From the NCBI RefSeq assembly GCF_016599145.1, contig NZ_JAENKO010000002.1, positions 124,001 through 188,000 on the forward strand: 64,000 nt of DNA, in the 5' to 3' direction. Positions 26,194 through 52,838 of this stretch are shown here, piece by piece. The notes below the pieces were generated by a model. It saw nothing but the letters and a program-made list of their open reading frames with translations, ran no database searches and was not told where the DNA came from. Positions within the stretch are counted from its first letter, which is position 1; the number at the start of each line of letters is the position of its first letter. The position numbers and the translations under genes are program-made. Origin of the DNA: Tomitella cavernea. GTDB lineage: Bacteria > Actinomycetota > Actinomycetes > Mycobacteriales > Mycobacteriaceae.

Positions 26194-26459
26194 CGCGTCC
26201 GCTCCTCCGCCGGCGAACCGGACGATCCGCATATCGCATGCACGAGGCTGGCGGGACGCATGTCGGTCCAGTTCCGCTCGACGAAGTCCACCGCGTCCTG
26301 CCGGGACGACTCGCCGAGGCGGATGGTCCACCCGTCGGGGACCGGGGCGAACACCGGCCACAAGGAATGCTGGCCCTCGTCGTTGACCAGCACGAAGAAA
26401 GCGGATTCCTCGTCGTCGAAGGGATTCGCCGCGGGGCCGTGTCGGGTGGGTGTGCTCAT
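26190..26459 (-). CDS. MbtH-like NRPS accessory protein
   Basis: Small protein that binds and activates or stabilises adenylation domains, 89 aa. Family marks are all present: NPFDDEE near the N-terminus, [12 protein letters not shown], the PDGW turn, and [11 protein letters not shown]. The ATG at 26459 overlaps the NRPS2 stop (ATGA) and has GGAGGA five bases upstream; the longer frame to 26492 lies inside NRPS2 and is not used. The tight coupling says it serves NRPS2, and as the only MbtH visible it may also serve NRPS1. Confidence 0.96.
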
Positions 26460-35400: not shown

Positions 35401-38400
35401 CCCAATCGATGTCCTGCGGGAGACGATCGGTCCCGTCCTCACCCGGCAGTCCGTCGTCCCCCGGCAGGCCGGCCTCGCCTCGCACATCGTTCACGTTGGC
35501 GAGGTCGTCCTCGGTGCACAGTCCGCACCGCACGCCGGAATCGACGAGCATGTATTCGATGCGCTGACGCGGATAGCCCGGGTCGACCGGCAGAAAGGCG
35601 GCGCCGCATTTGGCGACCGCCCAGATCCCGACCAGCGCGTCCACAGACCGCCGGATCGCCACCGCGACGAAGGACTCCGGGCCGATTCCGCGCGCGATCA
35701 GCGTCCGCGCCAGTGCGTTCGACCGCTCGTCCAGCGTCCGGTACGTCCACCCGCGCCCGTCCGCGGCGACGGCCTGACCACCGGGGTTCGCCGTCGCCGC
35801 CCGCGTGAGCATAGCGCCCAATGTCGGCGGGACGGAGACTTCCGAGGCCTCCGGGTACTGCGGCGGCTCCGGGGCGCGCATCGGGACGGTTTGACTGCGC
35901 TCATCCCTCGAGAGGATCTCGATCCGGTCCAGCGGAAGTTCGGGCGCACGCACCGCAGCGTCGAGGATCCGGACGAACCGCTCGGCCATCGCAGCGACGG
36001 TCTCCTCGTCGAACAGGCCGTCGTCGTAGGCGAAGGAGCCGCGGATGCCGCCGGCGCCGTCCTCGCCGGTCGGATCGTCCGCCCCCTGTGCTGCGGCAGC
36101 ACCCGGGTCGTCGATGACGACCTCGAGGTCGAACTTGACCGTACCCGTCCGGATCGGCTTCGCCGTCGCCGCAAGTCCTCCCGTCACCAGCCGAGTCGCC
36201 GGCCTGTCCTGCAGCGAGAGCACGGCCTGGAACAGGGTCGGCTCGCGATCCCGCTCGTCCTCCGGGCGGGCGGCGCGCACCTGGTCGACGATCTCCTCGT
36301 ACGGCAGGTCCGCGTGCGACTGCGCCTCGAGGGACGCCTCCCGGGCCGTGTGCAGCAGCGCATCGAAGCCGCGCGCCGGATCGATCGGCGTACGCAGGAC
36401 GAGCGTATTGACGAACATGCCGACGAGCCCGGCCAGGTCACGGTCGGTGCGGCCGGCCACCGGCGTGCCGATGCCGACGTCGACGGCGCCGCTGAGCCGG
36501 TGGACGAGGGCGGCCAGCGCCGCGTGCAGGACCATGAACTGTGTCGTCCCGTGGCGACGTGCGAGTTCCTGCAGCCCGTCGGCCGCCTCCGCGCCGATCC
36601 GGAAATCGACGAGGCCGCCCGTCCCCGTGCGTCGGCCGTCGGACGACGGCGCGGACGGCAGCACATCCTGATCAGCGAGCCCGTCGAGCGCCTCGGCCCA
36701 GTGCGCACGCTGTCGGCACTCACGGCTGTGCGGGTCGTGCGGGTCACCGAGCCTCTCCAGTCGGCGCATCGTGTGATCCGCGAACTGCAGCGGCAGCTCC
36801 TCCCACCCGGGCACCGCACCACGGCTGCGGGCGTCGTACGCCACGGCCAGATCGTGTGCGAGCGGGGTGAGCGACCACCCGTCCGCGGCGATGTGGTGGA
36901 TCGACACGGCGAGCACGTACCGCACGGCTGCCCGGTCCTGCGGATCGCCGACGAGGAACAGAGCGGCGCGCAGCGGACGGTCACGCGCGAGGTCGAACCC
37001 CTCTGCGGCGAAAGCGCACAGGCGCGCGGCGACCGCGTCCTCGGCCACCCTCTCCTCCGGAAGCCGCGCCGCCTGTGCCGGCAGCACCAGCTGGCGCGGC
37101 CCGGCCTCCCCCGACGGATAGACGGTGCGGAGGACCTCGTGCCGCGCCGTCACGTCGGCGAGCGCCGCGCCCAATGCCGCGCGGTCGGGTTCGCCGGCGA
37201 GATCCAGCGCGAACGGGATGTTGTAGTTGCCCGTCCCGGGATCGAGCGAGTTGAGGAACCACAACCGCCGCTGATCCGGCGAGAGCGGGACCACAGCGGG
37301 GCGCGACGGCAGTGCCCCGCCGTCGGCGTGCGGGTGTTCGACGGAGAAGACGACGTCGCCGGGAAGCGCTGCGGCGAATGCTGCGACCGTCGGCGCGTCG
37401 AACACGTCGGCGATCGTCAGCTCGAGGCCGGTCCACGCACGCAGCAGGGCCACGAGCTGCGTCGCCAGCAGCGAGTTGCCGCCGGTGTCGAAGAAGTCGG
37501 CGTCCGCGCCCACCTTCGGCACCTCGAGGATCTCGGCGAAGGCGGCGGCCACGGCCCGTTCCGCCGGTGTCTGCGGCTCCCTGTCGTCGGCGCGCGCACC
37601 GAAAGCCGGTCGCGGCAGCGCCGCACGGTCGAGTTTTCCGTTCGCAGTCACCGGCATCGCGTCGAGGACCACGATCGCCGCGGGGACCATGTACTCGGGA
37701 AGCCGCGCGCGGACCCGCCGGCGAAGGCCGCGCCCGTCCGGCCCGGGCCCGGACGATCCGGCCCTGGTCGCGGCCGGGTCTCCGACGACATGCGCGACGA
37801 TCGCCGCGTGCGCGCCCTCACCGAGCACTGTCGCGACCGCCTGGCCGACGCCGGGCTCGCCGGTCAGCACGGCTTCGATCTCGCCGAGCTCCACGCGCTG
37901 CCCGCGGACCTTGACCTGCGAATCGGTGCGCCCGAGGAAGTCCAGGCGGCCGTCGGACCGCCACCGGGCCAAGTCGCCCGTGCGGTAGAGCCTCCCACCG
38001 CCGCCGAACGGGTCCGCGACGAACGCGCCGGCCGTCAGCGCCGGGCGGCCGGCGTAGCCGCGCGCGAGCTGCGTGCCCGCCAGGTACAGTTCGCCGACGG
38101 CACCGACGGCCGCCGGCCGCAGGGCGGCGTCGAGTACGTAGGTGCGCGTGTTCCATACCGGCGCACCGATCGGGATCGCCTCGCCGGACAGGTCTCCCGG
38201 CAGGCATTCGGTGGCGGTGACGTCGACCGCCGCCTCCGTCGGGCCGTACAGGTTGTGCAGCGCAGCCTCCGACACCGCGCCGAAGTCCCGGACCGTTTTG
38301 GACGGCAGCGCCTCGCCGCTGCAGAAGACCATCCGCAGCGAGGTGCATGCGGCCGCGTGCGGCTCGGCGACGAACGCCGCCAGCATCGACGGCACGAAGT

Positions 38401-40651
38401 GTGCGACAGTCACGCCCGCACGACTGATCAGCCGCGCCAGATAATCCGGGTCCCGGTGCCCGCCGTCGAGCGGCAGGAGCATCGTGGCGCCCGCCTGCAA
38501 CGGCCAGAACAGCTCCCACACAGAGACGTCGAAGGTCATCGGTGTCTTCTGCACGACGGTGTCCTCGGAGCCGAGTACGTACCGGTGCTGCATCCACCGC
38601 AGCCGGTTCGTGATCGCCCGGTGGGTGACGGTGACGCCCTTGGGCCGCCCCGTCGAGCCGGAGGTGAAGATGATGTACGCCGCATCGTCGGGGTGGGGGT
38701 CGCGCAGTTCCGCGCCGCTGCCGTCCGTGCCCGTCCCGAGCAGTGCGCCCGCGCCGTCGATCCGCAGTATCGGCGCGGGTCCGGCCGGGCCGCCGGGTTC
38801 GGGGTTCGCGGGCGGCATCCGCGCCGCCTCCGCCACGTCGTCCGCGAGGTCTGCTGCAGTCAGAACGCAGGCCGGACGTGCCGCGCGCAGGACGTGGGCA
38901 GTGCGTTCGGCCGGATGGGCCGGATCGAGCGGCAGGTACGCCGCACCCGCCTTGACCACCGCGTACACGGCGACGATCGCGGCCACCGATCGCGGCGCGG
39001 CGATCGCCACGGTCGATCCGGGCCCGACGCCCCTCGCGCTCAGCATCCGCGCCAGCCGCTCGGCGCGATCGTCGAACTCCCGATAGGTCAGCGAGTCCGC
39101 ACCCGCCTCGTCGGAGGCGAGGGCGACCCGGTCCGGATACCGCGCCACGGCCGCCCGGAACATTGCGGGAAGCGTCGTCGCCTCGAGTTCGACGTCCGTG
39201 TCGTTCCAGGTCCGGAGAACCAGCCGCCGCTCCGCCTCCCCGGCGATCGGCAGACTGGTGAGCGGTGTCGACGCATCGGCCGTGGCGACGGCGTGCAGCA
39301 ACGAGAAGTACCTGCCGTGGTGATCCTGCAGGTCCCGCGCGTCGTACAGGTTCGGGTTGGCTTCGAAGTCGACGACGGTCCGACTGCCGCCCTGCGTCGG
39401 ATACACGTTGACCGACAGGTCTTCCACCGGCCCGGTCGACAGAATGTGCATAGTCCCCTTGACCGGACCGAAGTCGATGCCGTCGTGGAACATCATGATG
39501 TTGATCAGCGGACCGAGGAATCCCCGTCGCCCGGTGGACGCCCCGGCGTCCCGCATCATGTCCTCGTACCGGTAGCACTGGTGCTGCACGGCGGTCCGGA
39601 GTTCGGCGTTCATCCCATCGACGAGATCGCCGACGGTCGTCTCTGCGCGGAAACACGCCCGCAGCGGGACGATGTTCGACAGCACGCCGCCCGGTCGGCG
39701 CAACTCCCGCGTCGGCCGCGCCGCGACGGGCAGGCTGAGTACCACCTCCGGTTCCCCTGTGATGGAGGCGAGGTAGTACGCCATCGTCGCGGCGATCACC
39801 GATTCCGGACGGATCCCGCGGCCGGCGCACATCCGCACGATCGCCGCGAAGGTTTCGTGCGGCAATGCCGCCCCGGCTCGCAGGCTGGAGGGATCGGCGG
39901 GCGCCGTCCTACCCGCTGCGAGCGTGTGCACCGACGGCAACGGGTCCAGCTTGCCCGCCCAGTGTTCACGGTCGGCGGCCCACTGGTCCGACCGCCGGTA
40001 ATCAGCAGTCTGCTGTTGCACCACCGCCGCACCGGCCGTCTCGAGCGGAGCCGCGTCCTCCCCCGCGATGAGCGCGCCGTACCGCTCCGCCACCCGTTCA
40101 GCCACCTTCATCGCCGAGAATCCGTCGAAGACGATGTGGTGACCGCGGCAGAACCAGATGTAGTGTTCGTCGCCCACACGCAGCAGCGCGTTGCAGACCA
40201 GCCGGTCGCGGACGGCGTCGACGCATTCGGCCGCCCGGGCCCGCATCCACGCCATCGCGGCCGCACGAGGTGCGGCCTCGCCCCGGAAGTCGTACTGCTC
40301 GACGTCCAGCCGAACGTCCCGGTCCACCACCTGGAACGGTTCGCCGTCACGCAGAACGATGCGGGTCTGCGCCGCGTCCACCTCGTCACCGGTCATCCGC
40401 ACCGCGTCGGCCACCGCCTGCGGGTCCACCGCGCCCGGCAGGTCGAGATACTGGGCGATCGTGACCGGCACGTCCGGCGCCAGCAGCTGCGCCTCCCAGA
40501 GGCCACGCTGGGCGTCGGTCAGCGGGTACAGCCGTCCCATCTCAGCGTGCGCACCCGCCCGGCACGCCCCGGCAGCACCGGAGCCCGCTGAATCGGGGCC
40601 GGCGGCACCGGGCTCCTGTGCCTCGCGATCGTGCACGACGTGGCGTTGCAT
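26456..40651 (-). CDS. Nonribosomal peptide synthetase NRPS2 (4 modules + TE)
   Basis: A 4731-aa assembly line with four C-A-PCP modules and a C-terminal thioesterase. Approximate residues: C1 HHIVFDGFS 171, A1 663, PCP1 1060; C2 HHIAADGWS 1255, A2 1793, PCP2 2190; C3 HHIAADGGS 2395, A3 2886, PCP3 3258; C4 HHVAADGAS 3475, A4 3975, PCP4 4365; TE GWSLGG 4523. No epimerization domain. I start it at the ATG at 40651 ([12 protein letters not shown]) because GGAGGGAG sits nine bases upstream; an in-frame ATG at 40684 lacks such a site. The A1 code is the classical serine code. The TE makes this the chain-ending protein. The stop overlaps mbtH. Regulation is not evident: I saw no iron-box in the 203-nt upstream spacer. 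Confidence 0.97.
26530..27340 (-). other. NRPS2 thioesterase domain
   Basis: Type I alpha/beta-hydrolase thioesterase with [13 protein letters not shown], nucleophile serine in GWSLGG (about 27085), an aspartate in MLDSFLP and a late histidine in DCVHAQM. It releases the finished chain by hydrolysis or cyclisation; the sequence does not tell which. Confidence 0.85.
27440..30670 (-). other. NRPS2 module 4: C, A, PCP
   Basis: Condensation domain with [15 protein letters not shown] and HHVAADGAS; a short tandem peptide repeat lies just before the HH motif. A domain with [12 protein letters not shown] and [11 protein letters not shown]; hand-read code D-A-L-F-L-G-V-I-V-K, substrate not assigned. 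PCP motif [10 protein letters not shown] near 27560 precedes the thioesterase. Confidence 0.7.
30264..30299. repeat. 18-bp perfect tandem repeat inside NRPS2
   Basis: Two exact tandem copies of an 18-bp unit (30264-30281 and 30282-30299) encode HTNGNG twice, just N-terminal to the HHVAADG motif of C4. The phase is kept, so the protein gains a short flexible loop. It may vary in copy number by slippage. Confidence 0.85.
30740..33910 (-). other. NRPS2 module 3: C, A, PCP
   Basis: L-C-L condensation domain ([24 protein letters not shown]). A domain with [12 protein letters not shown] and [11 protein letters not shown]; hand-read code D-A-L-F-A-G-A-I-V-K, substrate not assigned. The carrier motif is [10 protein letters not shown] near 30880, with D before the serine. 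Confidence 0.7.
33950..37310 (-). other. NRPS2 module 2: C, A, PCP
   Basis: L-C-L condensation domain ([22 protein letters not shown]). A domain with [12 protein letters not shown] and [11 protein letters not shown]; hand-read code D-A-L-F-V-G-A-V-A-K, substrate not assigned. PCP serine in [10 protein letters not shown] near 34085. Between A and PCP lies an acidic Glu/Gly-rich linker (about 34110-34190). Confidence 0.7.
37330..40510 (-). other. NRPS2 module 1: EntF-like C, serine A, PCP
   Basis: The condensation domain has [20 protein letters not shown] and [13 protein letters not shown], the same EntF-like class as the first C of NRPS1. The A domain (FDVSVWELF ... VAHFVPSM ... [10 protein letters not shown] ... 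[13 protein letters not shown]) gives the code D-V-W-H-F-S-L-V-D-K, which is the known serine code of EntF-type enzymes. PCP serine in [10 protein letters not shown] near 37475. An acyl- or aryl-Ser start is possible, but so is acceptance of a peptide from NRPS1. Confidence 0.85.
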
Positions 40652-40854: not shown

Positions 40855-41490
40855 TCAGGGACGGGAGCGACCGGCGCCGGCGGAATCCAGGGCCGTGTGC
40901 AGCGTATCCGCCCACTGGCGCACGATGCGCTCGCGGCGGGCGGAATCGTCGGTGAGCACGTCCGCCAACCCGAGGCCGCGCGCCATGTCCAGGGTGGCCT
41001 GCACGAGCGTGTGCACCACCGGGTCAGCGTCGTCCGCACCGAGCATCTCGATGGTGGTGCGGTGCGCGTGCCGGCCGAACTTCGCCTCCAGCGGCACGAT
41101 GCGGGCCCGCAGCTGCTCGTCCGCCGCCGCCGCCGTCCACACCTGCAGAGCCGCCTTGAACAGGTTCCCGGTGAAGTGGTCGACCACCCCCTGGACGACG
41201 TGCAGGGTGCGGCTCGGGCCCGCACCGATCTCGGCCGCGCCGCCCCGGAGCTCGGTCATGCGGCCGTCGAACATGTACTCCAGCGCGCCCGTGATGAGGT
41301 CCTCGCGCGTCGGATAGTGGTGCTGTGCGGCCCCCCTCGACACCCCGGCGTGCTCGGCCACCTCCGCCACCGTCGACCCCGCCCAGCCGTGCACGGCGAG
41401 CAGTTCGATCGTCGACTCGAGCAGCCGCTGCCGGGTGGCCCGGCTCCGGTCCTGCTGCGGTTCGCGCACCTCGGAACGACGGCCGGTCAT
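40855..41490 (-). CDS. TetR-family transcriptional regulator
   Basis: DNA-binding repressor, 211 aa. The N-terminal helix-turn-helix is plain (TVAEVAEHAGVSRGAAQHHY, about residues 40-60) and the all-helical C-terminal part is a ligand-binding domain of unknown specificity. The ATG at 41490 has GGGGAGGAG at good spacing. It is the last gene of the catabolic operon, 56 nt after the enoyl-CoA hydratase, and is the likely reader of the 24-bp palindrome at the operon head (51131-51154), sensing perhaps an acyl-CoA intermediate. That link is inferred from position. It could instead control NRPS2, whose start lies 203 nt downstream on the same strand. Confidence 0.92.
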   Translation of the reverse strand: MTGRRSEVREPQQDRSRATRQRLLESTIELLAVHGWAGSTVAEVAEHAGVSRGAAQHHYPTREDLITGALEYMFDGRMTELRGGAAEIGAGPSRTLHVVQGVVDHFTGNLFKAALQVWTAAAADEQLRARIVPLEAKFGRHAHRTTIEMLGADDADPVVHTLVQATLDMARGLGLADVLTDDSARRERIVRQWADTLHTALDSAGAGRSRP

Positions 41491-41546: not shown

Positions 41547-42359
41547 TCACTCCGCCCAGGCCGGCGCCCTCTTCTGCAGGAACGCCGTCATGCCCTCGAT
41601 CGCCTCCGGCGTCCCGAACAGCTGCGCGGACCGCTCGCACAGGCGCTCCGCATCGGCGTCGAAGCCGGCCAGCACCGCCCGGGTGAGCAACGCCTTGGAT
41701 TCTGCCAGTCCCTGCGGGGATGCCTTGCGGAGCTCGGCCACCAGCACGTCGATCACCGCGGCCGCGTCGTCGGCGGCCACCGTCACCAGACCCATCGCCT
41801 CGGCGCGCGCCCCGTCGAACTTCTCGCCGGTGAGAAAGTACCGCCCGGCCGCGCGCGAGGTCATCCGGGGCAGCACGGTGAGCGAGATGATCGACGCGGC
41901 GAGCCCCAGGCGCGCCTCTGTGAGCGCGAAGGTGCACCGCGGCCCGGCCACCGCGACGTCGCACGCGCCGACCAGCCCCATGCCGCCCGCCCGCACGTGC
42001 CCGTCGATCAGTCCGATCACGGGCTTGGGGCATTCGAGGATCGCACGCAGCAGGCCCGCCATCGCCTCGGCGGGCGACTCCCCGCCGCCGGCGGCGGTGT
42101 CGGCGTCGGTCGCGGTGTCGTCGCCCCTCCCGCCGGTGGCCGCGCTCAGGTCGGCGCCCGCGCAGAAGGTCCCGCCGGTGTGCGTGAGCACGACCGCCCG
42201 GACCTGCGGGTCGTCCTGTGCCCGCGCCAGCCCCGCCCGGAAGTCGGCGATGAGGCGCGGGGAGAGCGCGTTGCGGTTGTGCGGCGAGTCCAGGATCAGC
42301 GTGGCGCGCACGCCGTCGGTGCCGTAACGGACGAGGGGCCCGTCCTGCTTGTCGGTCAT
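41547..42359 (-). CDS. Enoyl-CoA hydratase/isomerase family protein
   Basis: Crotonase-fold enzyme, 270 aa, that would hydrate the enoyl-CoA made by the neighbouring dehydrogenases or carboxylase. The oxyanion-hole stretches FCAGADL and RAGGMGLVGACD are present, followed by the usual LTGEKFDGARAEAMGLV. A low-complexity Gly/Asp/Ala insertion (GGRGDDTATDADTAAGGG) follows the first oxyanion loop. The ATG at 42359 has AGGAG upstream. It lies 51 nt after the dehydrogenase at 42411-43571 and before tetR. In related operons the equivalent hydrates a 3-methylglutaconyl-type or isohexenyl-glutaconyl-type CoA; the actual substrate is not shown by the sequence. Confidence 0.88.
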   Translation of the reverse strand: MTDKQDGPLVRYGTDGVRATLILDSPHNRNALSPRLIADFRAGLARAQDDPQVRAVVLTHTGGTFCAGADLSAATGGRGDDTATDADTAAGGGESPAEAMAGLLRAILECPKPVIGLIDGHVRAGGMGLVGACDVAVAGPRCTFALTEARLGLAASIISLTVLPRMTSRAAGRYFLTGEKFDGARAEAMGLVTVAADDAAAVIDVLVAELRKASPQGLAESKALLTRAVLAGFDADAERLCERSAQLFGTPEAIEGMTAFLQKRAPAWAE

Positions 42360-42410: not shown

Positions 42411-43571
42411 TCAGTACGACCGCGGCAGGCCCAGGCTGTGCTGCGAGACGAAGTTGAGGATCATCTCGCGGCTCACGGGGGCCACCCGCGCGATGCGCGC
42501 GGCGCCGAGCATCGCGGCCAGACCGTGTTCGGCCGCGAGCCCCCCGCCGCCGTGCGTCTGGATCGCCTGGTCGAGCGCCTTGATGCTCGCCTCCGCCGCG
42601 GCATACTTGGCCATGTTGGCCGCTTCCGCGGCGCCGCCGTCGTCGCCCGAGTCGTAGAGCACCGCGGCCTTCTGCATCATCAGTTTTGCCAGCTCCAGCT
42701 CGATCTTCACCTGCGCGAGCGGGTGCGCGATGCCCTGGTGCGCGCCGATGGGCGCATCCCACACCGCGCGTTCGCGCGCATAGGCCGTGGCCGCGTCGAG
42801 CGCGTAGCGGCCCATGCCCACGGCCATCGCGGCCCCCAGGATGCGCTCGGGGTTGAGCCCGGCGAACAGTTGCATCAGCGCCGCGTCCTCCGCGCCGACG
42901 AGGGCGTCGGCCGGCAGCCGCACGTCATCGAGGAACAAAGTGAACTGGTTGTCGGGCTCGACGATGTCCATCGCCATCGGCCGGGCGGTGAACCCCTCGG
43001 CGCCGGTGGGCACGATGAACAGCGCCGGCTTGAGCCTGCCGGTCCGGTGGTCCTCGGTGCGGGCGACGATGAGCACCGCGTCCGCCTGGTCGACGCCGGA
43101 GATGAAGACCTTGCTGCCGCCGAGCACCCATCCGCCGTCGTCGCGCCGTGCCGTGGTGGTGATGCGGTGGGAGTTCGAACCCGCGTCGGGCTCGGTGATC
43201 CCGAACGCCATCTTCCGGCTGCCGTCCGCCAGGCCCGGCAGCCAGGCGTCCTTCTGCGCGTCGGTGCCGTACTTGCCGATGATGGTGCCGCAGATCGCGG
43301 GCGAGACCACCACCAGCAGCAGTCCGGCGCCCTTGGCCGCGAGCTCCTCCTGCACCAGCGACAGCTCGTAGATGCCCGCTCCGCCGCCGCCATATTCCTC
43401 GGGCAGGTTGACCCCCAGGAAACCCGCCTTGCCCGCCTCGTCCCACAGCTCGGTGAGCGGTTCGCCGCGACGGGCGCGCGGCAGCACGTAGTCGACGTAT
43501 CCGTACCGCGCCGCAAGGCCCGCCACCGCCGCGCGGAGCTGCTTCTGCTCGTCGGTCTCGATGAAACTCAT
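42411..43571 (-). CDS. Acyl-CoA dehydrogenase (second of operon)
   Basis: FAD-dependent alpha,beta-dehydrogenase of acyl-CoA thioesters, 386 aa. Typical blocks are GITEPDAGSNSH (flavin site), GSKVFISGVD and QTHGGGGLAAEHG. The position that carries the catalytic Glu in short-chain enzymes (YEGT) reads VAPVS. A Glu is found in NPERILG instead, the place used by isovaleryl-CoA and long-chain enzymes. The ATG at 43571 overlaps the stop of the carboxylase alpha gene (ATGA) and has AGGAG upstream. It probably acts in the same branched-chain or isoprenoid pathway as its neighbours. Confidence 0.92.
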   Translation of the reverse strand: MSFIETDEQKQLRAAVAGLAARYGYVDYVLPRARRGEPLTELWDEAGKAGFLGVNLPEEYGGGGAGIYELSLVQEELAAKGAGLLLVVVSPAICGTIIGKYGTDAQKDAWLPGLADGSRKMAFGITEPDAGSNSHRITTTARRDDGGWVLGGSKVFISGVDQADAVLIVARTEDHRTGRLKPALFIVPTGAEGFTARPMAMDIVEPDNQFTLFLDDVRLPADALVGAEDAALMQLFAGLNPERILGAAMAVGMGRYALDAATAYARERAVWDAPIGAHQGIAHPLAQVKIELELAKLMMQKAAVLYDSGDDGGAAEAANMAKYAAAEASIKALDQAIQTHGGGGLAAEHGLAAMLGAARIARVAPVSREMILNFVSQHSLGLPRSY

Positions 43572-45703
43572 GCTTGTTCTCCTGACTGTCGTGGCGCGTC
43601 GGATCCTTCGCCATCGGGCCCCTCGGCCGCGTCCGGGGCGGACACGACCGCGAGGACCGCGCCGACCTCCACCTGCCTGCCGGCCTCCACCGCGACCTCG
43701 GTGAGCACGCCGTCCGCCGGCGCCGCGATGGCGTGCTCCATCTTCATCGCCTCGAGCCACAGGACGGGCTGGCCCGCGGTGACCGTGTCCCCCACCGCCG
43801 CGCCCAACCGGATGACGGTGCCGGGCATCGGCGCAAGCAGCGAGCCCGCCGCCTGCATCTCGGACGGGTCGACGAACCGCGGGACCGCGTCGAAGGCGCA
43901 GGGCCCCGACGACGAGTCGACGTGCACCCGGTCGCCCGCGGGGCCGCCGTCGTACCGGGCCACCGCGTACTCACGGCGGAGCCCGTCGACGGTGAGCACC
44001 ACCCGGTCCGGCGCCGCCGAGACGAGGCCGACGCCGTCGACGAAGCCGGTGGCGAGGCCGTCGCGGGTCAGCCGGTAGTCCACCTCATGGGTGCCGCGGG
44101 CGCCACGGAAGTCCTTGCGCTGGGGCTGCGAGGGCACGTTGCGCCACCCACCGGGGAGGCCCGCCACCACTGTCGCAGACGCCCGGTTCGCCGCGGCCTG
44201 CGCCAGCGCGGCGGCGAGCGCCGAGACGCGCTCGGCCCCGGCGTCGGCGAGCGGCGCGGACAGGGCGTCGAGCCCGTGGCGGTCGAAGAACGCGGTGTCG
44301 GTCTCGCCGGCGAGGAACGCCGGATGCCGCAGCACGTTGACCAGCAGGTCGCGGTTCGTCACCAAGCCGTGGATCCGGGCCCGGGCCAGCGCCGACGCGA
44401 GGATGCGCGCCGCCTCGCCGCGGTCCGGTGCCCACGCGATGACCTTGGCGAGCATCGGGTCGTAGTGCACGCCCACCGCAGAGCCGTCCTCGATCCCCGA
44501 GTCCAGCCGGACGCCCCGGTCCGCGGGCGGGGCCGCGAACTCCGCCGTCACCCCGGGCACCGAGAACCGGTGGACGGTGCCGGACTGCGGTTGCCACTGG
44601 AGCGACGGGTCCTCCGCGTACAGGCGCACCTCGATCGCGTGCCCCCGGGCCGCCGTGTCCGTCCCACGTCCTTCGCCCTCCCCGAACCTGGCACCCTCCG
44701 CCGCATGGAACTGCATCTCCACCAGGTCGATCCCGGTTGTCAGCTCCGTGACGGGATGCTCCACCTGCAGGCGCGTGTTCATCTCGAGGAAGTAGAAACG
44801 GCCCTGCTCGTCGGCCAGGAACTCCACCGTGCCCGCGCCCTCGTAGCCGATCACCGAGGCGGCCAGCCGGGCGGCGTCGAAGAGTCGCCGACGCATGTCC
44901 CCGCCCGCCCCGTCGATACGCTCGACCAGCGGCGACGGCGCCTCCTCGACCACCTTCTGGTGGCGGCGCTGGATCGAGCACTCCCGCTCGCCGAGCGCGA
45001 GCACGGTCCCGTGGGAATCCGCCATCACCTGCACCTCGATGTGCCGGCCGGTCTCCAGATAGCGCTCGCAGAACACGGTCGGATCGCCGAACGCGGAGGC
45101 GGCCTCGGCCCGTGCGGCCTCAATCTGCGGACGCAGGTCGGCCAGGTCGCGCACCACGCGCATGCCGCGTCCGCCGCCGCCCGCCGACGCCTTGATGAGC
45201 ACCGGCAGCTGGTCGGCGGTGACCTGGTCCGGATCGAGCTGGTCGAGCACGGGGACGCCGGCCGCGGCCATCCGCTTCTTCGATTCCACCTTGGAGCCCA
45301 TCAGCGCGATGGCCTCGGCGGGCGGGCCGATCCACGTCAGCCCGGCGTCGACGACGGCGCGGGCGAAATCGGCGTTCTCCGAGAGGAACCCGTACCCGGG
45401 GTGGACGGCATCGGCGCCGGCCGCGTGCGCGGCCGCCACGAGCAGGTCGCCCCGCAGGTACGTCTCCCCGGGAGCCGCGCCCGGCAGCCGGACCGCGGCG
45501 TCGGCCTCGCGCACGTGCGGCGCGTCCGCGTCCGCGTCGGAGTAGACGGCGGCGGTGCCGCGCCCGGTGCGGCGCGCGGTGGCGAACACGCGCCGGGCGA
45601 TCTCGCCGCGGTTGGCCACCAGGACGGTGGTCACCGGGGCAGAGCTGCTCACCGGGGCTGGGCTGGTCACCGGCGTGGACGTCGGCATGACGGTATCGGT
45701 CAC
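43568..45703 (-). CDS. Acyl-CoA carboxylase alpha subunit (biotin carboxylase + BCCP)
   Basis: ATP-dependent biotin carboxylase joined to its biotin carrier domain, about 711 aa, a normal length for acetyl/propionyl/methylcrotonyl-type alpha chains. VLVANRGEIARRVF starts the carboxylase domain, the ATP-grasp loop is KASAGGGGRGMR, EMNTRLQVEHPVTE is near the active site, and the biotin lysine is in EAMKMEH about 60 residues from the end. I take the GTG at 45703 as start, eight bases after the beta gene's stop; a nearby ATG at 45688 is the alternative and neither has a strong ribosome site. With the beta subunit it forms the carboxylase of the operon. Confidence 0.93.
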   Translation of the reverse strand: MTDTVMPTSTPVTSPAPVSSSAPVTTVLVANRGEIARRVFATARRTGRGTAAVYSDADADAPHVREADAAVRLPGAAPGETYLRGDLLVAAAHAAGADAVHPGYGFLSENADFARAVVDAGLTWIGPPAEAIALMGSKVESKKRMAAAGVPVLDQLDPDQVTADQLPVLIKASAGGGGRGMRVVRDLADLRPQIEAARAEAASAFGDPTVFCERYLETGRHIEVQVMADSHGTVLALGERECSIQRRHQKVVEEAPSPLVERIDGAGGDMRRRLFDAARLAASVIGYEGAGTVEFLADEQGRFYFLEMNTRLQVEHPVTELTTGIDLVEMQFHAAEGARFGEGEGRGTDTAARGHAIEVRLYAEDPSLQWQPQSGTVHRFSVPGVTAEFAAPPADRGVRLDSGIEDGSAVGVHYDPMLAKVIAWAPDRGEAARILASALARARIHGLVTNRDLLVNVLRHPAFLAGETDTAFFDRHGLDALSAPLADAGAERVSALAAALAQAAANRASATVVAGLPGGWRNVPSQPQRKDFRGARGTHEVDYRLTRDGLATGFVDGVGLVSAAPDRVVLTVDGLRREYAVARYDGGPAGDRVHVDSSSGPCAFDAVPRFVDPSEMQAAGSLLAPMPGTVIRLGAAVGDTVTAGQPVLWLEAMKMEHAIAAPADGVLTEVAVEAGRQVEVGAVLAVVSAPDAAEGPDGEGSDAPRQSGEQA

Positions 45704-45710
45704 GGCAGGC

Positions 45711-47321
45711 TCACATTCTGAAGACACCGAAGTCGCCGGTGCCCTCGATCGGTGCGGACGCGATGGCGGACAGGCACATGCCCAGGACCGTCCGGGTATC
45801 GCGCGGGTCGATGATGCCGTCGTCGAACACACGGCCGGACAGGAACATCGGCAGCGACTCGGCCTCGATCTGTGCTTCGACCATGGCGCGCATCCCGGCG
45901 TCGGCCTCCTCGTCGAACGGCCGGCCCTTCGCCTCCGCGCTCGCGCGGCTGACTATGGAGATGACCCCGGCCAGTTGTGCGGGCCCCATCACCGCGGATT
46001 TGGCGCTCGGCCAGGCGAACAGGAAGCGCGGGTCGTACGCCCTGCCGCACATCCCGTAGTGGCCGGCACCGTAGGACGCGCCGATGAGCAGGGATATGTG
46101 CGGCACCGTCGAGTTGGAGACCGCGTTGATCATCATCGCGCCGTGCTTGATGATCCCGCCCTGCTCGTACTCCGCGCCCACCATGTAGCCGGTGGTGTTG
46201 TGCAGGAACAGCAGGGGGGTGTCCGCGCGGTTGGCGAGCTGGATGAACTGCGCCGCCTTCTGCGCCTCCTCGGAGAACAACACGCCGCGCGCGTTGGCGA
46301 GGATGCCGATGGGATAGCCGTGCAGCCGCGCCCATCCGGTGACCAGCGACGAGCCGTAGAGCGCCTTGAACTCGTCGAACTCGGACCCGTCGACGATGCG
46401 CGCGATCACCTCGCGCGGGTCGAACGGCACCTTGAGGTCCTCCGGCACGATGCCCAGGAGTTCCTCGGTGCCGTGGAGCGGCTCGCGCGCACGGCCTTCG
46501 GGGCCGAGGTCCGGCGCGGGCCCCTGCTTGCGCCAGTTCAGTCGCTTGACGATGGACCGGCCGATGCGGAGGGCGTCGTACTCGTCCTGCGCGAAGTAGT
46601 CGGCCAGCCCGGACGTGCGGGCGTGCATCTCCGCGCCGCCGAGCGACTCGTCGTCTGCGACCTCCCCGGTGGCCATCTTCACCAGCGGCGGCCCGCCGAG
46701 GAACACCTTGGAACGGTCCTTGACCATGACCACGTGGTCGGACATTCCCGGAATGTATGCGCCGCCGGCGGTGGAGTTCCCGAACACCAATGCCACCGTG
46801 GGGATTCCCGCAGCCGAGGCGCGGGTGAGGTCGCGGAACATCCGCCCGCCGGGGATGAAGACCTCCTTCTGCGTGGGCAGATCGGCGCCCGCCGACTCCA
46901 CGAGCGAAATGACCGGCAGCCGGTTCTGCCGGACGATCTCGTTGACGCGGAACGACTTCTTGATCGTCCACGGGTTCGACGCCCCGCCGCGGCTGGTGGG
47001 GTCGTTGGCGACGATCATGCATTCGACGCCCTCGACCACGCCGATCCCCGCGACCACGTTGGCGCCGACGGGGAAGTCGGTCCCCCAGGCGGCGAGCGTG
47101 CACAACTCGAGGAACGGGGAGTCCTCGTCGATGAGCAGCTCGATGCGTTCGCGGGCGAGCAACTTGCCGCGCTTCCGATGCCGCTCGACGTACTTCTCCC
47201 CGCCGCCGGCGAGCGCCTTGTCCACCTCGGTGCCGATCTCGTCGAGCTTGCGCCCCATGGCGTCGGCCGCGGCGCGGTACTCCTCCGACCCGGTGTCGAG
47301 AAGCGTCTTCAGTGTGCTCAT
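45711..47321 (-). CDS. Acyl-CoA carboxylase beta subunit (carboxyltransferase)
   Basis: Transfers the carboxyl group from biotin to an acyl-CoA, 536 aa. Crotonase-fold oxyanion blocks are FGNSTAGGAYIPGMSDH in the N-half and LIGASYGAGHYGMCGRAYDP in the C-half. The sequence type is that of methylcrotonyl-/geranyl-CoA carboxylase beta chains rather than propionyl-CoA carboxylase, judged by overall look only. Its ATG overlaps the upstream dehydrogenase stop (ATGA) and the alpha subunit follows seven bases after its stop. Subunit pairing is therefore clear; the substrate is not. Confidence 0.93.
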   Translation of the reverse strand: MSTLKTLLDTGSEEYRAAADAMGRKLDEIGTEVDKALAGGGEKYVERHRKRGKLLARERIELLIDEDSPFLELCTLAAWGTDFPVGANVVAGIGVVEGVECMIVANDPTSRGGASNPWTIKKSFRVNEIVRQNRLPVISLVESAGADLPTQKEVFIPGGRMFRDLTRASAAGIPTVALVFGNSTAGGAYIPGMSDHVVMVKDRSKVFLGGPPLVKMATGEVADDESLGGAEMHARTSGLADYFAQDEYDALRIGRSIVKRLNWRKQGPAPDLGPEGRAREPLHGTEELLGIVPEDLKVPFDPREVIARIVDGSEFDEFKALYGSSLVTGWARLHGYPIGILANARGVLFSEEAQKAAQFIQLANRADTPLLFLHNTTGYMVGAEYEQGGIIKHGAMMINAVSNSTVPHISLLIGASYGAGHYGMCGRAYDPRFLFAWPSAKSAVMGPAQLAGVISIVSRASAEAKGRPFDEEADAGMRAMVEAQIEAESLPMFLSGRVFDDGIIDPRDTRTVLGMCLSAIASAPIEGTGDFGVFRM

Positions 47322-48538
47322 CGCTGGAACCCCAATCGCTTTGCCGCCAGTCCGTTCAGGATCTCTGTGGTGCCGCCGCCGATGCCGAGGATGCGCATGT
47401 CCCGGTACTGGCGTTCCACCTCGCTCTCGCGCATGTACCCCATTCCGCCGAAGAGTTGGACCGCCTTGTGCGCCACCCATTCGCCGGTCTCCACCGCGGT
47501 GTTCTTCGCGAAGCAGACCTCCGCCACCAAGTCGGTGTCGCCCGCCGCGTAACGGTCCACGACGTGCCGCGTGTACACCCGGGCGATGTCGATGCGGCGG
47601 GCCATCTCCGTCAGCGTGTCCTGCACCGACTGGCGCGCGATGAGCGGTCTGCCGAACGTCTCCCGGTCGCGGCACCACGCCAGGGTCAGGTCGAGGCAGC
47701 GCTGGGCCGCCGAGTAGGCCTGCGCGGCCAGCGCGACCCGCTCGGTGACGAAGGCCTGCGCGATCTGCAGGAAGCCGCTGTTCTCGGGGCCCACGAGGTT
47801 GCCCACGGGTACCCGGCATCCGGCGAAGGACAGCTCGGCCGTGTCGGAGGCCAGCCAGCCCATCTTGTCGAGTCTGCGGGCCACCTCGAACCCGGGCGTG
47901 CCCTTGTCCACCACCAGCAGCGACACGCCTGCGGCGCCGCCGCCACCCGGTGCGCCGGGGTCTCCCGTGCGCACCGCGGTGACGACGAAGTCGGCGCGCA
48001 CGCCGGAGGTGATGAAGGTCTTGGCACCGTCCACCACGTAGTGGTCGCCGTCGCGGACCGCGCGGGTGCGCAGGTGGCCGACGTCCGAGCCGCCGCCGGG
48101 TTCGGTGACCGCGAGCGCACCGATCGCCGTGCCCTCCAGCGTGGGTCGCACCCACCGGTCGATCTGCCCGGCGTCGCCGGCCGCGATGAGGTGCGGCACC
48201 GCGATCCCACAGGTGAACAGCGAGGCGAACAGCCCGCCGGAGCAGCCGTCGTAGTGCATCTGCTCGCAGATGATCACCGCGTCCCGCGGCGACCCGCCCC
48301 CGCCCCCGGCGGATTCCGGGAACGAGGCGCCGAGCAGCCCCAGCTCCCCCGCCGTGCGGTGCAGGCTCCGGGGGAGTTCACCGGCGCGTTCCCACTCGTC
48401 CTGTTGCGGCCGCACGTCGCGGGCCATGAAGGCGCTCACGGTCGCGCGCAGCGCGGACGCGTCGGGGCCGTTCCACAGGTCCTGCGCCGGACCCACGCTC
48501 GCCGTGTCCCCCGTACTCGTCATGTTCCCTGTGCTCAC
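47318..48538 (-). CDS. Acyl-CoA dehydrogenase (first of operon)
   Basis: FAD acyl-CoA dehydrogenase, 406 aa from the GTG at 48538. That start overlaps the AtuA-family stop (GTGA) and has GAGGAG eight bases upstream; an ATG five codons later is the alternative. Blocks VTEPGGGSDVGH, GAKTFITSGV and LFGGMGYMRESEVERQYRD are typical. A Glu in FVTERVAL takes the isovaleryl/long-chain enzyme position, while the YEGT position reads GGGT. Like its partner at 42411-43571 it therefore looks built for branched or longer acyl chains. It is upstream of the carboxylase, so it may make the enoyl-CoA that is carboxylated. Confidence 0.92.
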   Translation of the reverse strand: MSTGNMTSTGDTASVGPAQDLWNGPDASALRATVSAFMARDVRPQQDEWERAGELPRSLHRTAGELGLLGASFPESAGGGGGSPRDAVIICEQMHYDGCSGGLFASLFTCGIAVPHLIAAGDAGQIDRWVRPTLEGTAIGALAVTEPGGGSDVGHLRTRAVRDGDHYVVDGAKTFITSGVRADFVVTAVRTGDPGAPGGGGAAGVSLLVVDKGTPGFEVARRLDKMGWLASDTAELSFAGCRVPVGNLVGPENSGFLQIAQAFVTERVALAAQAYSAAQRCLDLTLAWCRDRETFGRPLIARQSVQDTLTEMARRIDIARVYTRHVVDRYAAGDTDLVAEVCFAKNTAVETGEWVAHKAVQLFGGMGYMRESEVERQYRDMRILGIGGGTTEILNGLAAKRLGFQR

Positions 48539-50295
48539 AGCGCGGACTCCTCGACGTCGATTCCGGTGGCCGCGACGGACGCGGGCATGTCGATGCGGCG
48601 CGAACGCAGCCACTCGGCCAGGCCCTTGGCCTGCGGGTCGAATCGCGCATTGTAGGCGACGCCCTGTCCGAGGATCCCCTCGATCACGAAGTTGACCGCG
48701 CGCAGATTCGGCAGCACCGTGCGCGTGATCGGCAGGCCCGCGGTCTCCGGCAGCATCCTGCGCAGTTCGTCGATCGTCAGCGCGCGCGCGAGCCAGCGCC
48801 ACTGCGCGTCGGTGCGGACCCAGACGCCGATGTTGGCGTTGCCGCCCTTGTCGCCGCTGCGGGCCGCGGCCACGGCGCCCAGCGGAAGATTGCGCGTCGG
48901 ACCGGGATCTCCGTCGTCCCCGCTCTCGGCCTCCGGCGGACCGGGATCCCGGACCGGTTCCAGCCCGCGGGTCTCGTCGGCCGGCGGAATGTCCACCCGC
49001 GTCCCGTCCGGCAGCACCGCCACGTGCGGCACCTTGTGGCGGTCGACGTACCCGGCCGTGAACACGCCGTAGGGTGCGGCCTTCCCGGGCATCGACGTGA
49101 GCGTGGCACCCGGGTACCCGGCCAGCGCGAGCTCGACGGCGACATTGGAGAACGCCCGGCCCACCGTGTCCGGGTCCCGGTCCCGCACCGCGCAGGTGAG
49201 CAGCGCGCTCGCCTGCTGCTGAGTGGGGGCGTCGGGCCGGTCCACCCGTGCAAGGTCCCAGGTGAGCTCCGCGGGGCGGACGGGCAGCCACGATTCGAGC
49301 TGCCGCCGGGACAGCTCCGCCTTCGCCTCGATGTCGAGCCCGGTCAGCACGAAGGTCATCTCGTTGCGGAACCCGCCCAGCGAGTTCAGCGAGACCTTGA
49401 GGTCCGGCGGCGGGGGCTCGCCGTGCACCCCGGTGATCGACACGCGGTCGGGGCCGTCCTGCGCGAGGGCGACCGTGTCCAGGCGCGCGGTGGCGTCCGG
49501 ATTGGCGTAGCGCGCGGTCTGGATCTCGTACATCAGCTGCGCGGTGACCGTGTCGACGGTGACCGCACCGGCCGTGTCCGGATGCTTGGTGATCACCGAC
49601 GAGCCGTCGCGCCGGATCTCCGCCAGCGGGAAGCCGGGCCGAGACATGTCGGCGATCTCGCGGAAGAACGCGAAGTTGCCGCCGGTGGCCTGCGTGCCGC
49701 ACTCGATGACGTGCCCTGCGACCACGGCCCCGGCGATCGCGTCGTAGTCCGTGCGCCCCCAGCCGAAGTGGGCGGCCGCCGGGCCGACGATCACCGACGC
49801 GTCGGTGACCCGCCCGGTCACCACCACGTCCGCACCCGAGCCCAGCGCCTCCACGATCCCCCACGACCCCAGGTATGCATTGGCGGTGAGCGGTTCGCCC
49901 AGTCCCAGCTCCGCGGCGCGCGGCGCCAGGTCGTCGCCCTCGACATGCGCGACCGTCGCGGTCAGCCCAAGCTCCTGCGTCAACTCCCGCAGCCGCGCGG
50001 CGAGTCCCGCGGGGTTGAGTCCGCCCGCATTCGCGACGATCCGCACCCCCTTGTCCAGCGCCAGGCCCAGACAGTCCTCGAGCTGACGCACGAAAGTCTT
50101 GGCGTAGCCGAGCTCGGGATGCTTCATCCGGTCGCGGCCGAGGATGAGCATGGTGAGCTCGGCGAGGTAGTCGCCGGTGAGCACGTCCACATCGCCGCCA
50201 TCGAGCATCTCGCGCATGGCCGAGATGCGGTCGCCGTAGAAGCCGGAGCAGTTGCCGACGCGGATCAGGTCCGGGTCGGGTGCCAGAGAAATCAT
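48535..50295 (-). CDS. AtuA-family (DUF1446) protein
   Basis: 586 aa. The N-terminal two thirds are the DUF1446/AtuA domain: [49 protein letters not shown]. The last hundred or so residues form the AtuA-like ferredoxin-fold domain with [15 protein letters not shown]. AtuA is needed for acyclic terpene (citronellol) use in Pseudomonas, but its reaction is not established. The ATG at 50295 has GGAGGAG upstream and overlaps the previous stop (ATGA). Its place beside a biotin-dependent acyl-CoA carboxylase matches the terpene gene set, which is why an isoprenoid-like substrate is suspected. Confidence 0.9.
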
Positions 50296-51104
50296 CGGGT
50301 CTCCTCCCGTCGCGGCCGTTCCGAATGCGGCGGGCGCCCGCCTCCCGGTGCGCCCGCGAACGCCTGCGCGATCGTCATCCATCGCCGCGCGTCGTCGCCT
50401 TCGGCCTTGATGTCGAGGTCGTCGGGATGCCGCCGCTGGGTGACGAGCAGGCAGAAGTCCAGCGCCGGGCCGGTGATCCGCTGCGCCGCGTCGTCGGGAC
50501 CCCACACCCAGTCGTCGCCGTCGGGGGCCGTGAGTTCCACTCGGAACGCCTCGGCCGGCGGCGGCAGTTCGTGCACCGCATACGCGAAGTCGCGCGTGCG
50601 GACGCCGATGTGGGCGACGTGCCGCAGCCGGCTCGTCGGTGCCTTTGCCACACCCAGCGCGTCCGCGACGTCCTCGCCGTGCGCCCAGGTCTCCATGATC
50701 CGCGCGGTGGCCATGGACACCGGGCTCATCGGCGGGCCGAACCACTGCACCTTCTCGCCTGCCGGCCTGTCGCGCAGCGCCTGCGTGAGCGCGGCCCGCC
50801 CCTCTCGCCAGCGCGTGAGCAGCGCTGCGGGCGCGATGCTCGCCCACCGGTCCGCCCCCGCGTCGACGAACCCGGTCGGGTCGGCCCAGGCCTCCGCGAC
50901 CAGTTCCTGAAACCGGGGCTCGTCGGTCGCGGCGGTCAGCGATGCGGCATCCGTCCAGGCGAGATGTCCGATCTGGTGCGCGATGGTCCACCCGGCGGCC
51001 GGAGTCGGCGTGGACCAGTCATCAGAGTCCAGGCCGGCGACGAGAGCATCGAGTGCGTCGCCTTCCGCGTCGAGGTCCGCCAGGACCGGTTCGAGTTCAG
51101 CCAC
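50292..51104 (-). CDS. TIGR03084-type putative metal-binding protein (DinB/MDMPI-like)
   Basis: About 270 aa, first gene of the catabolic operon. The N-terminal half resembles the DinB/mycothiol-dependent maleylpyruvate isomerase fold: [15 protein letters not shown] carries two histidines, and [13 protein letters not shown] a third, which together would bind a metal. I recognise it as the TIGR03084 family that accompanies AtuA genes; its reaction is not known to me. I chose the GTG at 51104 ([16 protein letters not shown]) because a -10-like GATGCT lies at 51111-51116, which would start the transcript on this codon (leaderless). A GTG two codons earlier is possible. The frame upstream crosses the palindrome and is not coding. 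Confidence 0.82.
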
Positions 51105-51110
51105 GTGCAC

Positions 51111-51139
51111 AGCATCACACAGGATCAGCGAACAATCAA
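51111..51139 (-). promoter_or_regulatory. Candidate leaderless promoter of the AtuA/carboxylase operon
   Basis: On the minus strand TTGATT (51134-51139) and GATGCT (51111-51116) are separated by exactly 17 nt. Transcription would then begin about six bases on, at the GTG at 51104, with no leader; this is common in Mycobacteriales. The -35 hexamer lies inside the palindrome 51131-51154, so a bound repressor would block it. Sequence-based call only. Confidence 0.5.
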
Positions 51140-51154
51140 GCATGCTTGATTGTT
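51131..51154. promoter_or_regulatory. Perfect 24-bp palindromic operator
   Basis: The two half-sites are AACAATCAAGCA and its exact reverse complement, with no spacer. It lies 27-50 bp upstream of the first gene of the eight-gene operon and covers the -35 element. Size, symmetry and A/T-flanked CAAGCATGCTTG core are typical of TetR-family operators. The only regulator in the operon is the TetR at 40855-41490. I saw no second copy in the other intergenic regions of the window. Confidence 0.8.
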
Positions 51155-51326: not shown

Positions 51327-52838
51327 CTACAGCCGCGCCATCCCCAGCAGCGCCGCGAACCCGAGCACCGTCTTCGGCTCATACCCGGAACGCCACAGCC
51401 CCCCGTGCGCCGCCTGATCCGCGAAAAGGCGCTCGGGATGCGTACGCGTGCCGGCATCGTGGTGGAGATCGTGTGCCAGCAGCGCCGCCATGAGCACGCG
51501 GGTGGTGTCGGCCGCGAAGATCTCGACCCCGAAGTGCCGCGCCCCCTTGTAGGCGGATGCCAGCACCTTGTTCTTGGTCACCGAGCGGGTCCACGACGCC
51601 GGCGCCACGTTGAACGACACCGTGTGCCCGGCACGCTCGGCGGTGACGCCGCGCCATCGCTGCAGCCGCTTGGCCATCGCGTAGCTCGGCCCCTGCTGCG
51701 GCACGAGGATGTCGGCCACGCCGGTGCCGTCGGTGTGCACGGACCTGTACGACGGCTCGAACAGCGCGCCGCGGCCCGCGAGGCGCAGCGGCGCCTGCAG
51801 ATACCGCTTGGCGTCGCGGCGGTCCCAGGCCCCGTGCCCGGCTGCGACCACCTCGGGCGGCACGACGAACGCGTCCGTCGGCGTCTGCAGATAGGCGAGC
51901 GCGGTCGACGGGTGCCCGGCCAGGAGCCGCTCGATGATGAGGTCGGTGGCCATGCTGATGCGCACGTGCGCGCCCCGGTCCGCGTAGGCGTACATGCCGA
52001 ACACCATCCGCGATCCCGCGGCGTCGCCCGCGCCCGCGTGCCCGCCCAGCCAGGCGGTCGCCGCGGCGGGCTCGCCGACGATGTCCAGACCCGGGGCCCC
52101 GTCAGCGGACACCGGGAAGCGGACACGCCCCGCCCCCCGCTCCGCCGTCCGTATGATCCGGTCCCACACCCGCTCCGCCGGCAGGTCGACGGCGAGGATG
52201 TCCGCGCCCCACCGTGCGAAGGGTTCGAGCGGGCTCAGCTCGCCGCCCGCGCCCATCATCGCGATGGTGCGCCCGGGCAGCGCGAGCCACTCCGGGTTCT
52301 CCACCACCCGCGTGATCGCCGCCGCGAACGAGGGCTCGACGGCCCCCGCCGCCACCCACCGGTCGAGCTGTGCCACGAGCGCGTGACCCTCGAGGAGGCC
52401 GTCCCGATACGGCACGCGCAGCACCGGGTCGGGCGTCGCCGTGCCGATGACCTGCCCGGTCGCCGGGGCCGGGACCGACCATTCCGCGTCGCCGACCTCA
52501 TCGAGCGGCACGGCGCCTTCGACGGACTCCCAGACGAGCCGGCGGCGCGCCTGCGCGATCCCGGCTTCCGCGATGGCCCACGCCGTGTCCGCGTCCCGCG
52601 CAGAAAGGGAGGTCAGCTCCGCCATCAGCGGAGCGTAGTCCGTGCGCCAGTCGCGGCGGCGCTCCACGCGCGCAGCGAGGTCGTCCGACGCTGCGCCCGC
52701 CGCGGCGGCGAGCACGCTGCGCATCGGGTCCGTCGTCGGCCGCGAGTCCCCCGCACGGGCGAATTCCACCCCCGCCGGAGGCGCCGTGGCCGGTGCGTCC
52801 GTGCCGTGCGCTCCCGCGGTTGCGGCCGTCTCGCTCAT
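51327..52838 (-). CDS. Unrecognised 503-aa protein with Rossmann-like segment
   Basis: I do not recognise this protein. From the ATG at 52838 (GGAAGGA upstream) it is 503 aa, soluble, with no signal peptide or membrane segment. An Ala/Pro/Thr-rich first 30 residues precede a helical part (RRDWRTDYAPLMAEL). Near residues 190-225 the stretch RTIAMMGAGGELSPLEPF followed by GADILAVDLP has the shape of a dinucleotide-binding fold: a glycine turn, a helix, then a strand ending in an acidic residue. Basic, conserved-looking stretches follow (TKNKVLASAYKGARHFG). It stands alone between the catabolic operon and a divergent DUF1992-mycoredoxin gene, 219 nt away; that spacer holds both promoters and no visible gene. 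Confidence 0.85.
   Translation of the reverse strand: MSETAATAGAHGTDAPATAPPAGVEFARAGDSRPTTDPMRSVLAAAAGAASDDLAARVERRRDWRTDYAPLMAELTSLSARDADTAWAIAEAGIAQARRRLVWESVEGAVPLDEVGDAEWSVPAPATGQVIGTATPDPVLRVPYRDGLLEGHALVAQLDRWVAAGAVEPSFAAAITRVVENPEWLALPGRTIAMMGAGGELSPLEPFARWGADILAVDLPAERVWDRIIRTAERGAGRVRFPVSADGAPGLDIVGEPAAATAWLGGHAGAGDAAGSRMVFGMYAYADRGAHVRISMATDLIIERLLAGHPSTALAYLQTPTDAFVVPPEVVAAGHGAWDRRDAKRYLQAPLRLAGRGALFEPSYRSVHTDGTGVADILVPQQGPSYAMAKRLQRWRGVTAERAGHTVSFNVAPASWTRSVTKNKVLASAYKGARHFGVEIFAADTTRVLMAALLAHDLHHDAGTRTHPERLFADQAAHGGLWRSGYEPKTVLGFAALLGMARL

Follow-up and report, generated by a model that had tools for sequence, protein, structure and literature searches.

The atu operon encodes AtuA, a two-subunit carboxylase of the geranyl-CoA type, an acyl-CoA dehydrogenase and an enoyl-CoA hydratase, the acyclic terpene (Atu) cluster includes SDR genes and an acyl-CoA synthetase, and the AtuR operator consists of two 13-bp inverted repeats. 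As far as the excerpts of the respective papers go, AtuR of Pseudomonas aeruginosa is a TetR-like repressor of a divergent neighbour across a 280-bp gap (PMC3511530), and BkaR is an autoregulatory TetR repressor of an acyl-CoA carboxylase operon with a palindromic operator (PMC3920632); control of a catabolic operon by its own TetR repressor, as in these two cases, is a well-known kind of regulation. The locus described here resembles the AtuR/atu system in its TetR-family repressor and similar gene set, but differs from it in arrangement, since AtuR is divergent to its target, whereas in the present locus tetR closes the operon and one site overlaps the –35 element of a predicted leaderless promoter. 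The comparison with AtuR is one of gene content and arrangement. Profile searches revealed no SDR or acyl-CoA synthetase genes among the eight operon genes.

With the BkaR system of mycobacteria (the branched-chain keto-acid operon with accD1) the locus shares a carboxylase operon, a palindrome and a proposed autoregulation. The BkaR site, however, is given in the excerpt of PMC3920632 as GTTA(N)T(N4)A(N)TAAC, present in two copies at a divergent operon, unlike the single site here. AccD1 of that operon moreover carries the MCC signature (a Phe plus a 3-residue insertion), whereas gene 4 of the present operon is of the GCC type. A further likeness exists with the KstR2 regulon, in which a mycobacterial TetR repressor governs a catabolic gene set and the half-site is of an AAGCA type similar to the palindrome here, but KstR2 matches the TetR of our locus only in the DNA-binding part (PDB search, residues 18–78, E 4e-4). 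Probable counterparts of genes 4 and 5 are found in AccD2-AccA2 of Mycobacterium, whose cluster in M. tuberculosis presumably has the gene order AtuA-ACAD-CT-BC-ACAD-ECH. An operon of this order in genus g29, a member of the family of our locus that we take to be probably Mycobacterium, encodes a carboxyltransferase that is 77–80% identical to gene 4, but the g29 operons differ from ours in that this TetR went undetected and the site is absent. The role of AccD2-AccA2 is called an open question in the excerpt of PMC4347857.

In the 64-kb stretch of DNA analysed (the window), eight closely spaced minus-strand genes lie downstream of the palindrome, with a TIGR03084 gene first and a TetR gene last. 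Gene 1 (50292–51104) encodes a TIGR03084 family metal-binding protein (MDMPI_N/DinB-like; TIGR03084 at 367 bits against a cut-off of 248; PF11716), gene 2 (48535–50253, its true start slightly upstream of 50253) an AtuA family protein (PF07287 at 507 bits, together with PF23544), and gene 3 (47318–48505, its true start slightly upstream of 48505) acyl-CoA dehydrogenase 1. They are followed by gene 4 (45711–47321) for the carboxyltransferase (beta) subunit of an acyl-CoA carboxylase, recognised by domain match and, for its GCC-type pocket signature, by PDB alignments, and by gene 5 (43568–45706) for the alpha subunit, a biotin carboxylase that also carries BT and biotinyl domains (domain match). 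Acyl-CoA dehydrogenase 2 (gene 6, 42411–43568, profile matches), an enoyl-CoA hydratase (gene 7, 41547–42359, PRK07827 equivalog, NF005879 at 390 bits against a cut-off of 283) and a TetR-family regulator (gene 8, 40855–41490, PF00440), the proposed repressor of both the operon and itself, complete the series. This gene spacing would be consistent with a single 10-kb transcript and hence with autoregulation of tetR. Among relatives, tetR begins a median of 28 nt after the preceding gene, and because the gap is ≤150 nt in only 94 of 129 operons, tetR might have its own promoter in some of them. Simple promoter and terminator scans at both ends of the operon returned no match.

The sequence AACAATCAAGCATGCTTGATTGTT at 51131–51154 forms a perfect 24-bp palindrome, the proposed TetR operator, with a conserved 18-bp core at 51134–51151. 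Its 12-bp arms make it the longest gapless even palindrome of the window, where the runner-up has arms of 9 bp, and in 60 simulations of the window under a first-order Markov model the arms never exceeded 11 bp. The preliminary description had placed such a perfect palindrome over the –35 element, and the TTGATT hexamer does lie within it; it had also proposed a genome search for more copies. Within the window, no second match to the 24-mer occurs at ≤3 mismatches, and the core proved unique at this threshold in the whole 4.02-Mb genome, on which ground the notion of a larger regulon in this genome was set aside. A relaxed core pattern with 1 mismatch was uninformative in this genome (21 forward matches versus 26 for the reversed control). 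The half-site letters follow a 4-base period (AAAC-AATC-AAGC), and the core pattern matches again when shifted by 4. By analogy with QacR, two TetR dimers could possibly sit side by side on the palindrome.

On the minus strand, the letters run from TTGATT (51139–51134) through a 17-nt spacer (51133–51117) to GATGCT (51116–51111), GTGCAC and the start codon GTG (51104–51102). The TTGATT-17-GATGCT promoter of the preliminary description is therefore present in letters and spacing, but its hexamers are weak by consensus (a sigma-70 consensus scan yielded no promoter above threshold), and the –10 reads better as an extended element, TGT-GATGCT (51111–51119), that takes the form TGN[G/C]ANNNT in relatives. 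The best-scoring TGN begins 14 nt past the core in 126 of 129 operons; since the score rewards conserved letters, more weight attaches to the constant offset than to the letters. All 129 operons share G at –14 and T at –7, while T at –15 and A at –11 reach 97% and 98%, and positions –13 and –12 drift; because –12 is mostly G or C instead of T, the strength of the promoter is uncertain. We consider the conserved TGN[G/C]ANNNT to be the likely signature of an extended –10 and not of a CRP site. The –35 element (51134–51139) occupies the promoter-proximal operator half, and the two half-sites are unequally constrained: at core position 12, where TTG begins, 128 of 129 operons have a T, while the mate of this position, position 5, is free. 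Such an asymmetry fits the prediction of a –35 element placed inside the operator.

The GTG expected six bases past the –10 was found at 51104, a position equal to the conserved start position in relatives. Among 114 TIGR03084-first operons, the start codon lies 29–31 nt past the core in 79, and 75 of these 79 have no Shine-Dalgarno-like (SD-like) sequence; in the remaining 35 the start lies later, and 31 of them carry an SD-like sequence as judged by a loose pattern. This contrast suggests that the promoter has remained constant while the start codon moved, usually with the gain of a ribosome-site-like sequence. With its GTG 29 nt past the core, the window is predicted to belong to the leaderless type, and the start-codon spacing in relatives points to 51102–51104 as the predicted transcription start as well, so the mRNA would be leaderless and begin at or beside 51104. 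A second GTG at 51110, six bases upstream of 51104, is missing in the same-genus locus L063.

Conservation of the site was assessed in 140 regions, most of them taken around TetR matches and representing a subset of the 167 family genomes with this TetR. Among 141 loci, 138 had a TetR match and 133 a first gene, and setting apart the tetR-first loci L095–L098 left 129 operons. In 110 of 133 regions, the stretch before the first gene contained a match to the window core with ≤4 mismatches; in 624 equally long control windows drawn from these loci, no match had fewer than 5. Realignment with a weight matrix placed the module AAC-AA[GT]CA-N5-TGCTTG[AC]TT-TTT, 14 nt, TGN[G/C]ANNNT in 129 of 129 upstream regions. 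Because such a matrix will find a best position in any sequence, the weight of this count resides in the 8 core positions shared by all 129 regions and in the fixed spacing. Perfect symmetry is dispensable, with only 7 of the 129 aligned 18-mer cores being perfect palindromes.

A further 80 loci came from named genomes, some of which also occur in the 129-operon set, and comprised 48 with tetR downstream, 2 with tetR first, 6 with operon genes but no tetR in the stretch examined, and 24 with TIGR03084 alone. Where tetR was downstream, the site was present in 47 of 48 loci, including those of Streptomyces, Kribbella, Saccharopolyspora, Rhodococcus and Gordonia, and the one miss (L306) starts at a contig end. 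The 6 loci without tetR carried the site with ≤4 mismatches in 5 cases and with 5 mismatches in 1. Among the 24 lone TIGR03084 loci, the site was found with 3–5 mismatches in 5 Nocardia loci and 1 Streptomyces locus. It was absent from the other 18, that is, from 15 mycobacterial loci in which the remaining operon is not nearby (8–10 mismatches), two Actinomadura loci and one MAG.

Presence of the site also followed presence of this particular TetR. The core at ≤2 mismatches was detected in 49 of 201 family genomes, all of them among the 167 with the TetR (E 1e-40) and none among the 34 without it (Fisher p 4e-5, a value that ignores the relatedness of the genomes). In 4 of the 49 (G078, G107, G190 and G200) the match lies on another contig or at least ~90 kb from tetR, the operon's own site having more mismatches than this distant match, and the off-operon matches had no evident role in the three of these genomes that were inspected. 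Two of them, at 1501–1518 of both L029 and L031 in genus g6 (G200 and G190, respectively), are perfect palindromes AAGCAAGCATGCTTGCTT, each on a contig separate from that of tetR, with no target gene evident from the nearby reading frames.

The carboxyltransferase was sought in 20 of the 34 TetR-less family genomes, and the 10 in which a close copy turned up were examined further. In 9 of these 10 genomes, which keep the operon without a detectable TetR, no site at ≤4 mismatches was present in the 16–20 kb taken; the exception, G097 (L228), has a 4-mismatch site, and the TetR was not found at E 1e-40 either in its genome or near its operon. Loci with an intact operon, an undetected TetR and a vanished operator (L225–L227 and L229–L234) belong to genera g29 and g8. 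Nine of the mycobacterial genomes with lone TIGR03084 loci were searched: a TetR match at E 1e-30, with 40% identity, came from one of them, and another, the TetR-less Mycobacterium genome G238, contains a single pattern match elsewhere.

Natural rearrangements of the operon were informative as well. In split operons the site occurs on both halves (L079/L094 and L078/L237), and in G077, where genes 1 and 2 lie ~3.9 kb apart, it stands before each of them, with 5 and 2 mismatches, respectively. The ACAD1 gene is missing from the operon of G031 (L082) and has been relocated together with a site of its own (L235), and in G014 it likewise lies elsewhere with a site (L099), the contig of the operon being incomplete. 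The five Nocardia loci have a lone gene 1 behind a site with 3–5 mismatches and the usual 14-nt spacing to the –10, and each of the same five genomes has a further site ~9 kb from its tetR match. In four of these lone loci (L276, L277, L263 and L322) the core reads AAGCACGC[GA]TGCTTGCAT, shifted by four bases and overlapping a second match; its orientation and its distance of 14 nt from the –10 are the usual ones. In L311 no shift is needed. In 6 of 6 loci that have tetR as their first gene, a related inverted repeat with CTTGACTGTTTGT is found just upstream of tetR, and in L096 and L283 TTGACT is separated by 17 nt from a –10-like hexamer, with a start codon 6 nt further on.

On the protein side, the DNA-binding domain TetR_N (PF00440) is present in gene 8, and the recognition segment GVSRGA-x-QHH is invariant across 128 aligned orthologues. 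An AlphaFold2 model of gene 8 is all-helical (pLDDT 88.6) and matches TetR structures in Foldseek; the 50 matches listed are generic TetR structures of 12–24% identity and give no hint of a ligand. Because of the co-occurrence of site and regulator, the loss of the site in TetR-less genomes, the split, relocated and tetR-first loci and the invariant recognition segment, the palindrome at 51131–51154 is very probably the operator of the operon's own TetR. The compact TetR repressor switch originally proposed for this locus thus gains support from comparative evidence, namely conservation and natural rearrangements.

Overall, we regard it as highly likely that the palindrome is the operator of the terminal TetR over the –35 element, and that it serves a ligand-released, autoregulated leaderless operon of eight genes. 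In the absence of substrate, one TetR dimer (or two) over the –35 would block RNA polymerase and keep the operon silent. Binding of an acyl-CoA or a related pathway intermediate would then cause TetR to leave the operator, and the freed promoter would give a leaderless mRNA from the 51104 region that covers all eight genes, including tetR. With tetR at the end of the transcript, the repressor would limit its own synthesis, and repression would return as the intermediate is consumed. The sequences themselves show the sites with their conservation, their association with tetR and what became of them in rearranged operons; from these we infer that TetR binds and represses, what releases it, where the transcript starts and how long it is.

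Some features of the locus might be read differently. TGTGA-N6-TCNCA is the CRP/GlxR-type consensus, and most relatives have TGTGA around the –10, many with TCTCA or TCGCA six bases on; since TGTGA-N6-TC[TG]CA is also seen where the start codon is elsewhere, this element could represent a CRP/GlxR-type site instead of a –10. We deem this unlikely, as divergent relatives alter positions –13 and –12 (TGGCA, TGCCA, TGCGA, TGTCA) while keeping T–15, G–14, A–11 and T–7, and as 126 of 129 operons keep a 17-nt spacer to the –35. A different start of the gene has also been considered, in which the mRNA is leadered, arises from upstream transcription and is translated from an in-frame ATG at the centre of the palindrome (51143). 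The frame from this ATG is open in the window, and 84 of 114 operons have an in-frame start with an open frame inside the palindrome or no more than 20 nt away from it. The absence of such a start from the other 30, the further promoter that would be required upstream (the ATG precedes the predicted –35 and –10) and the fact that displaced starts go downstream, with an SD-like sequence in 31 of 35, nevertheless make this start very improbable in comparison with the GTG at 51104.

Ownership of the palindrome and the sign of its effect can be questioned as well. The genome encodes further TetR-like proteins (19 matches at E 0.001), one of which or another regulator could own the palindrome, tetR being merely linked to the operon. 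We attach little probability to this, because the site tracks this TetR (49/167 with versus 0/34 without), is absent from 9 of 10 TetR-less operons and precedes tetR in 6 of 6 tetR-first loci, and because the recognition segment is invariant. Very improbable in our view is also that the TetR acts as an activator or dual regulator from the palindrome: TetR-family activators do exist, AtrA being named as activating in the excerpt of PMC3511530, but the site contains the –35 and has a fixed spacing to the –10 in 126 of 129 operons, which would leave no room for RNA polymerase, and it is not located upstream of the promoter. Repression by the operon's own TetR accordingly remains the preferred reading of the palindrome.

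The possible substrate was approached through the carboxyltransferase. By whole-length score, gene 4 is closest to MCC beta (3u9r) and scores lower against GCC beta (5ikl). According to the excerpt of PMC4673880, a 3-residue insertion precedes a Phe in MCC beta, and in GCC beta this Phe is replaced by Gly. In PDB alignments the pocket reads EVFIPGGRMF in gene 4, EVFPDREHFGRIF in MCC beta and AccD1, and EIFVEGARGF in GCC beta; the insertion is absent and the Gly present in 196 of 196 carboxyltransferase alignments (three sets, with some genomes repeated), the assignment of GCC-type residues being made by alignment. An MCC/leucine role, favoured by the whole-length score, was therefore set aside on the GCC-like pocket signature. 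This signature, together with AtuA and the gene set, favours gamma-carboxylation of a substrate larger than 3-methylcrotonyl-CoA, for instance an acyclic isoprenoid acyl-CoA, and the pathway encoded by the operon likely acts on an isoprenoid or branched acyl-CoA. Two g21 genomes have a perfect 18-bp core before an acyl-CoA synthetase gene off the contig of the operon (L100, 9563–9580; L236, 8861–8878), and an acyl-CoA synthetase would be a natural entry enzyme for such a pathway.

A search of open-access papers, with subscription papers lying outside it, returned no match to six strings of the site, and none of the matches listed was a paper on this regulon as judged by title or start of the abstract. 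The papers listed led to neighbouring systems such as AtuR and BkaR, and the excerpt of PMC3199775 contributed nothing decisive. The excerpt of PMC4482099 describes a motif search at divergently oriented mycobacterial TetR genes, and the operator may have gone unseen there because of this focus on divergent genes and because 8 of 9 named Mycobacterium-group genomes searched have no TetR match at E 1e-30. On a broader reading, for which we see the arguments as evenly balanced, one TetR regulon extends across Actinomycetia (Tomitella, Rhodococcus, Nocardia, Gordonia, Saccharopolyspora, Kribbella and Streptomyces, with a variant in Nocardioides relatives), has been lost in Mycobacterium, controls the pathway of the AccD2-AccA2 carboxylase, acting on an isoprenoid or methyl-branched acyl-CoA, responds to an intermediate of that pathway as ligand, and switches between leaderless and leadered mRNA. 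The locus offers a precise candidate operator-regulator pair for a widespread, uncharacterised carboxylase operon, and because the TetR should bind a pathway intermediate, its ligand would point to the substrate. It might also provide a set of natural variants of one promoter, with leaderless species on one side and leadered ones on the other.

Two neighbours of the operon deserve mention. Upstream of the operator, the minus-strand gene at 51327–52793 encodes a 488-aa stretch without a Pfam match, a homologue of which also precedes the operon in L062, L063 and L066. At the other end, a large minus-strand NRPS gene (26456–40651) begins ~200 nt past tetR with an ATG at 40651 that is preceded by GGAGG, and NRPS sequence is likewise found behind tetR in the same-genus loci L062 and L063.
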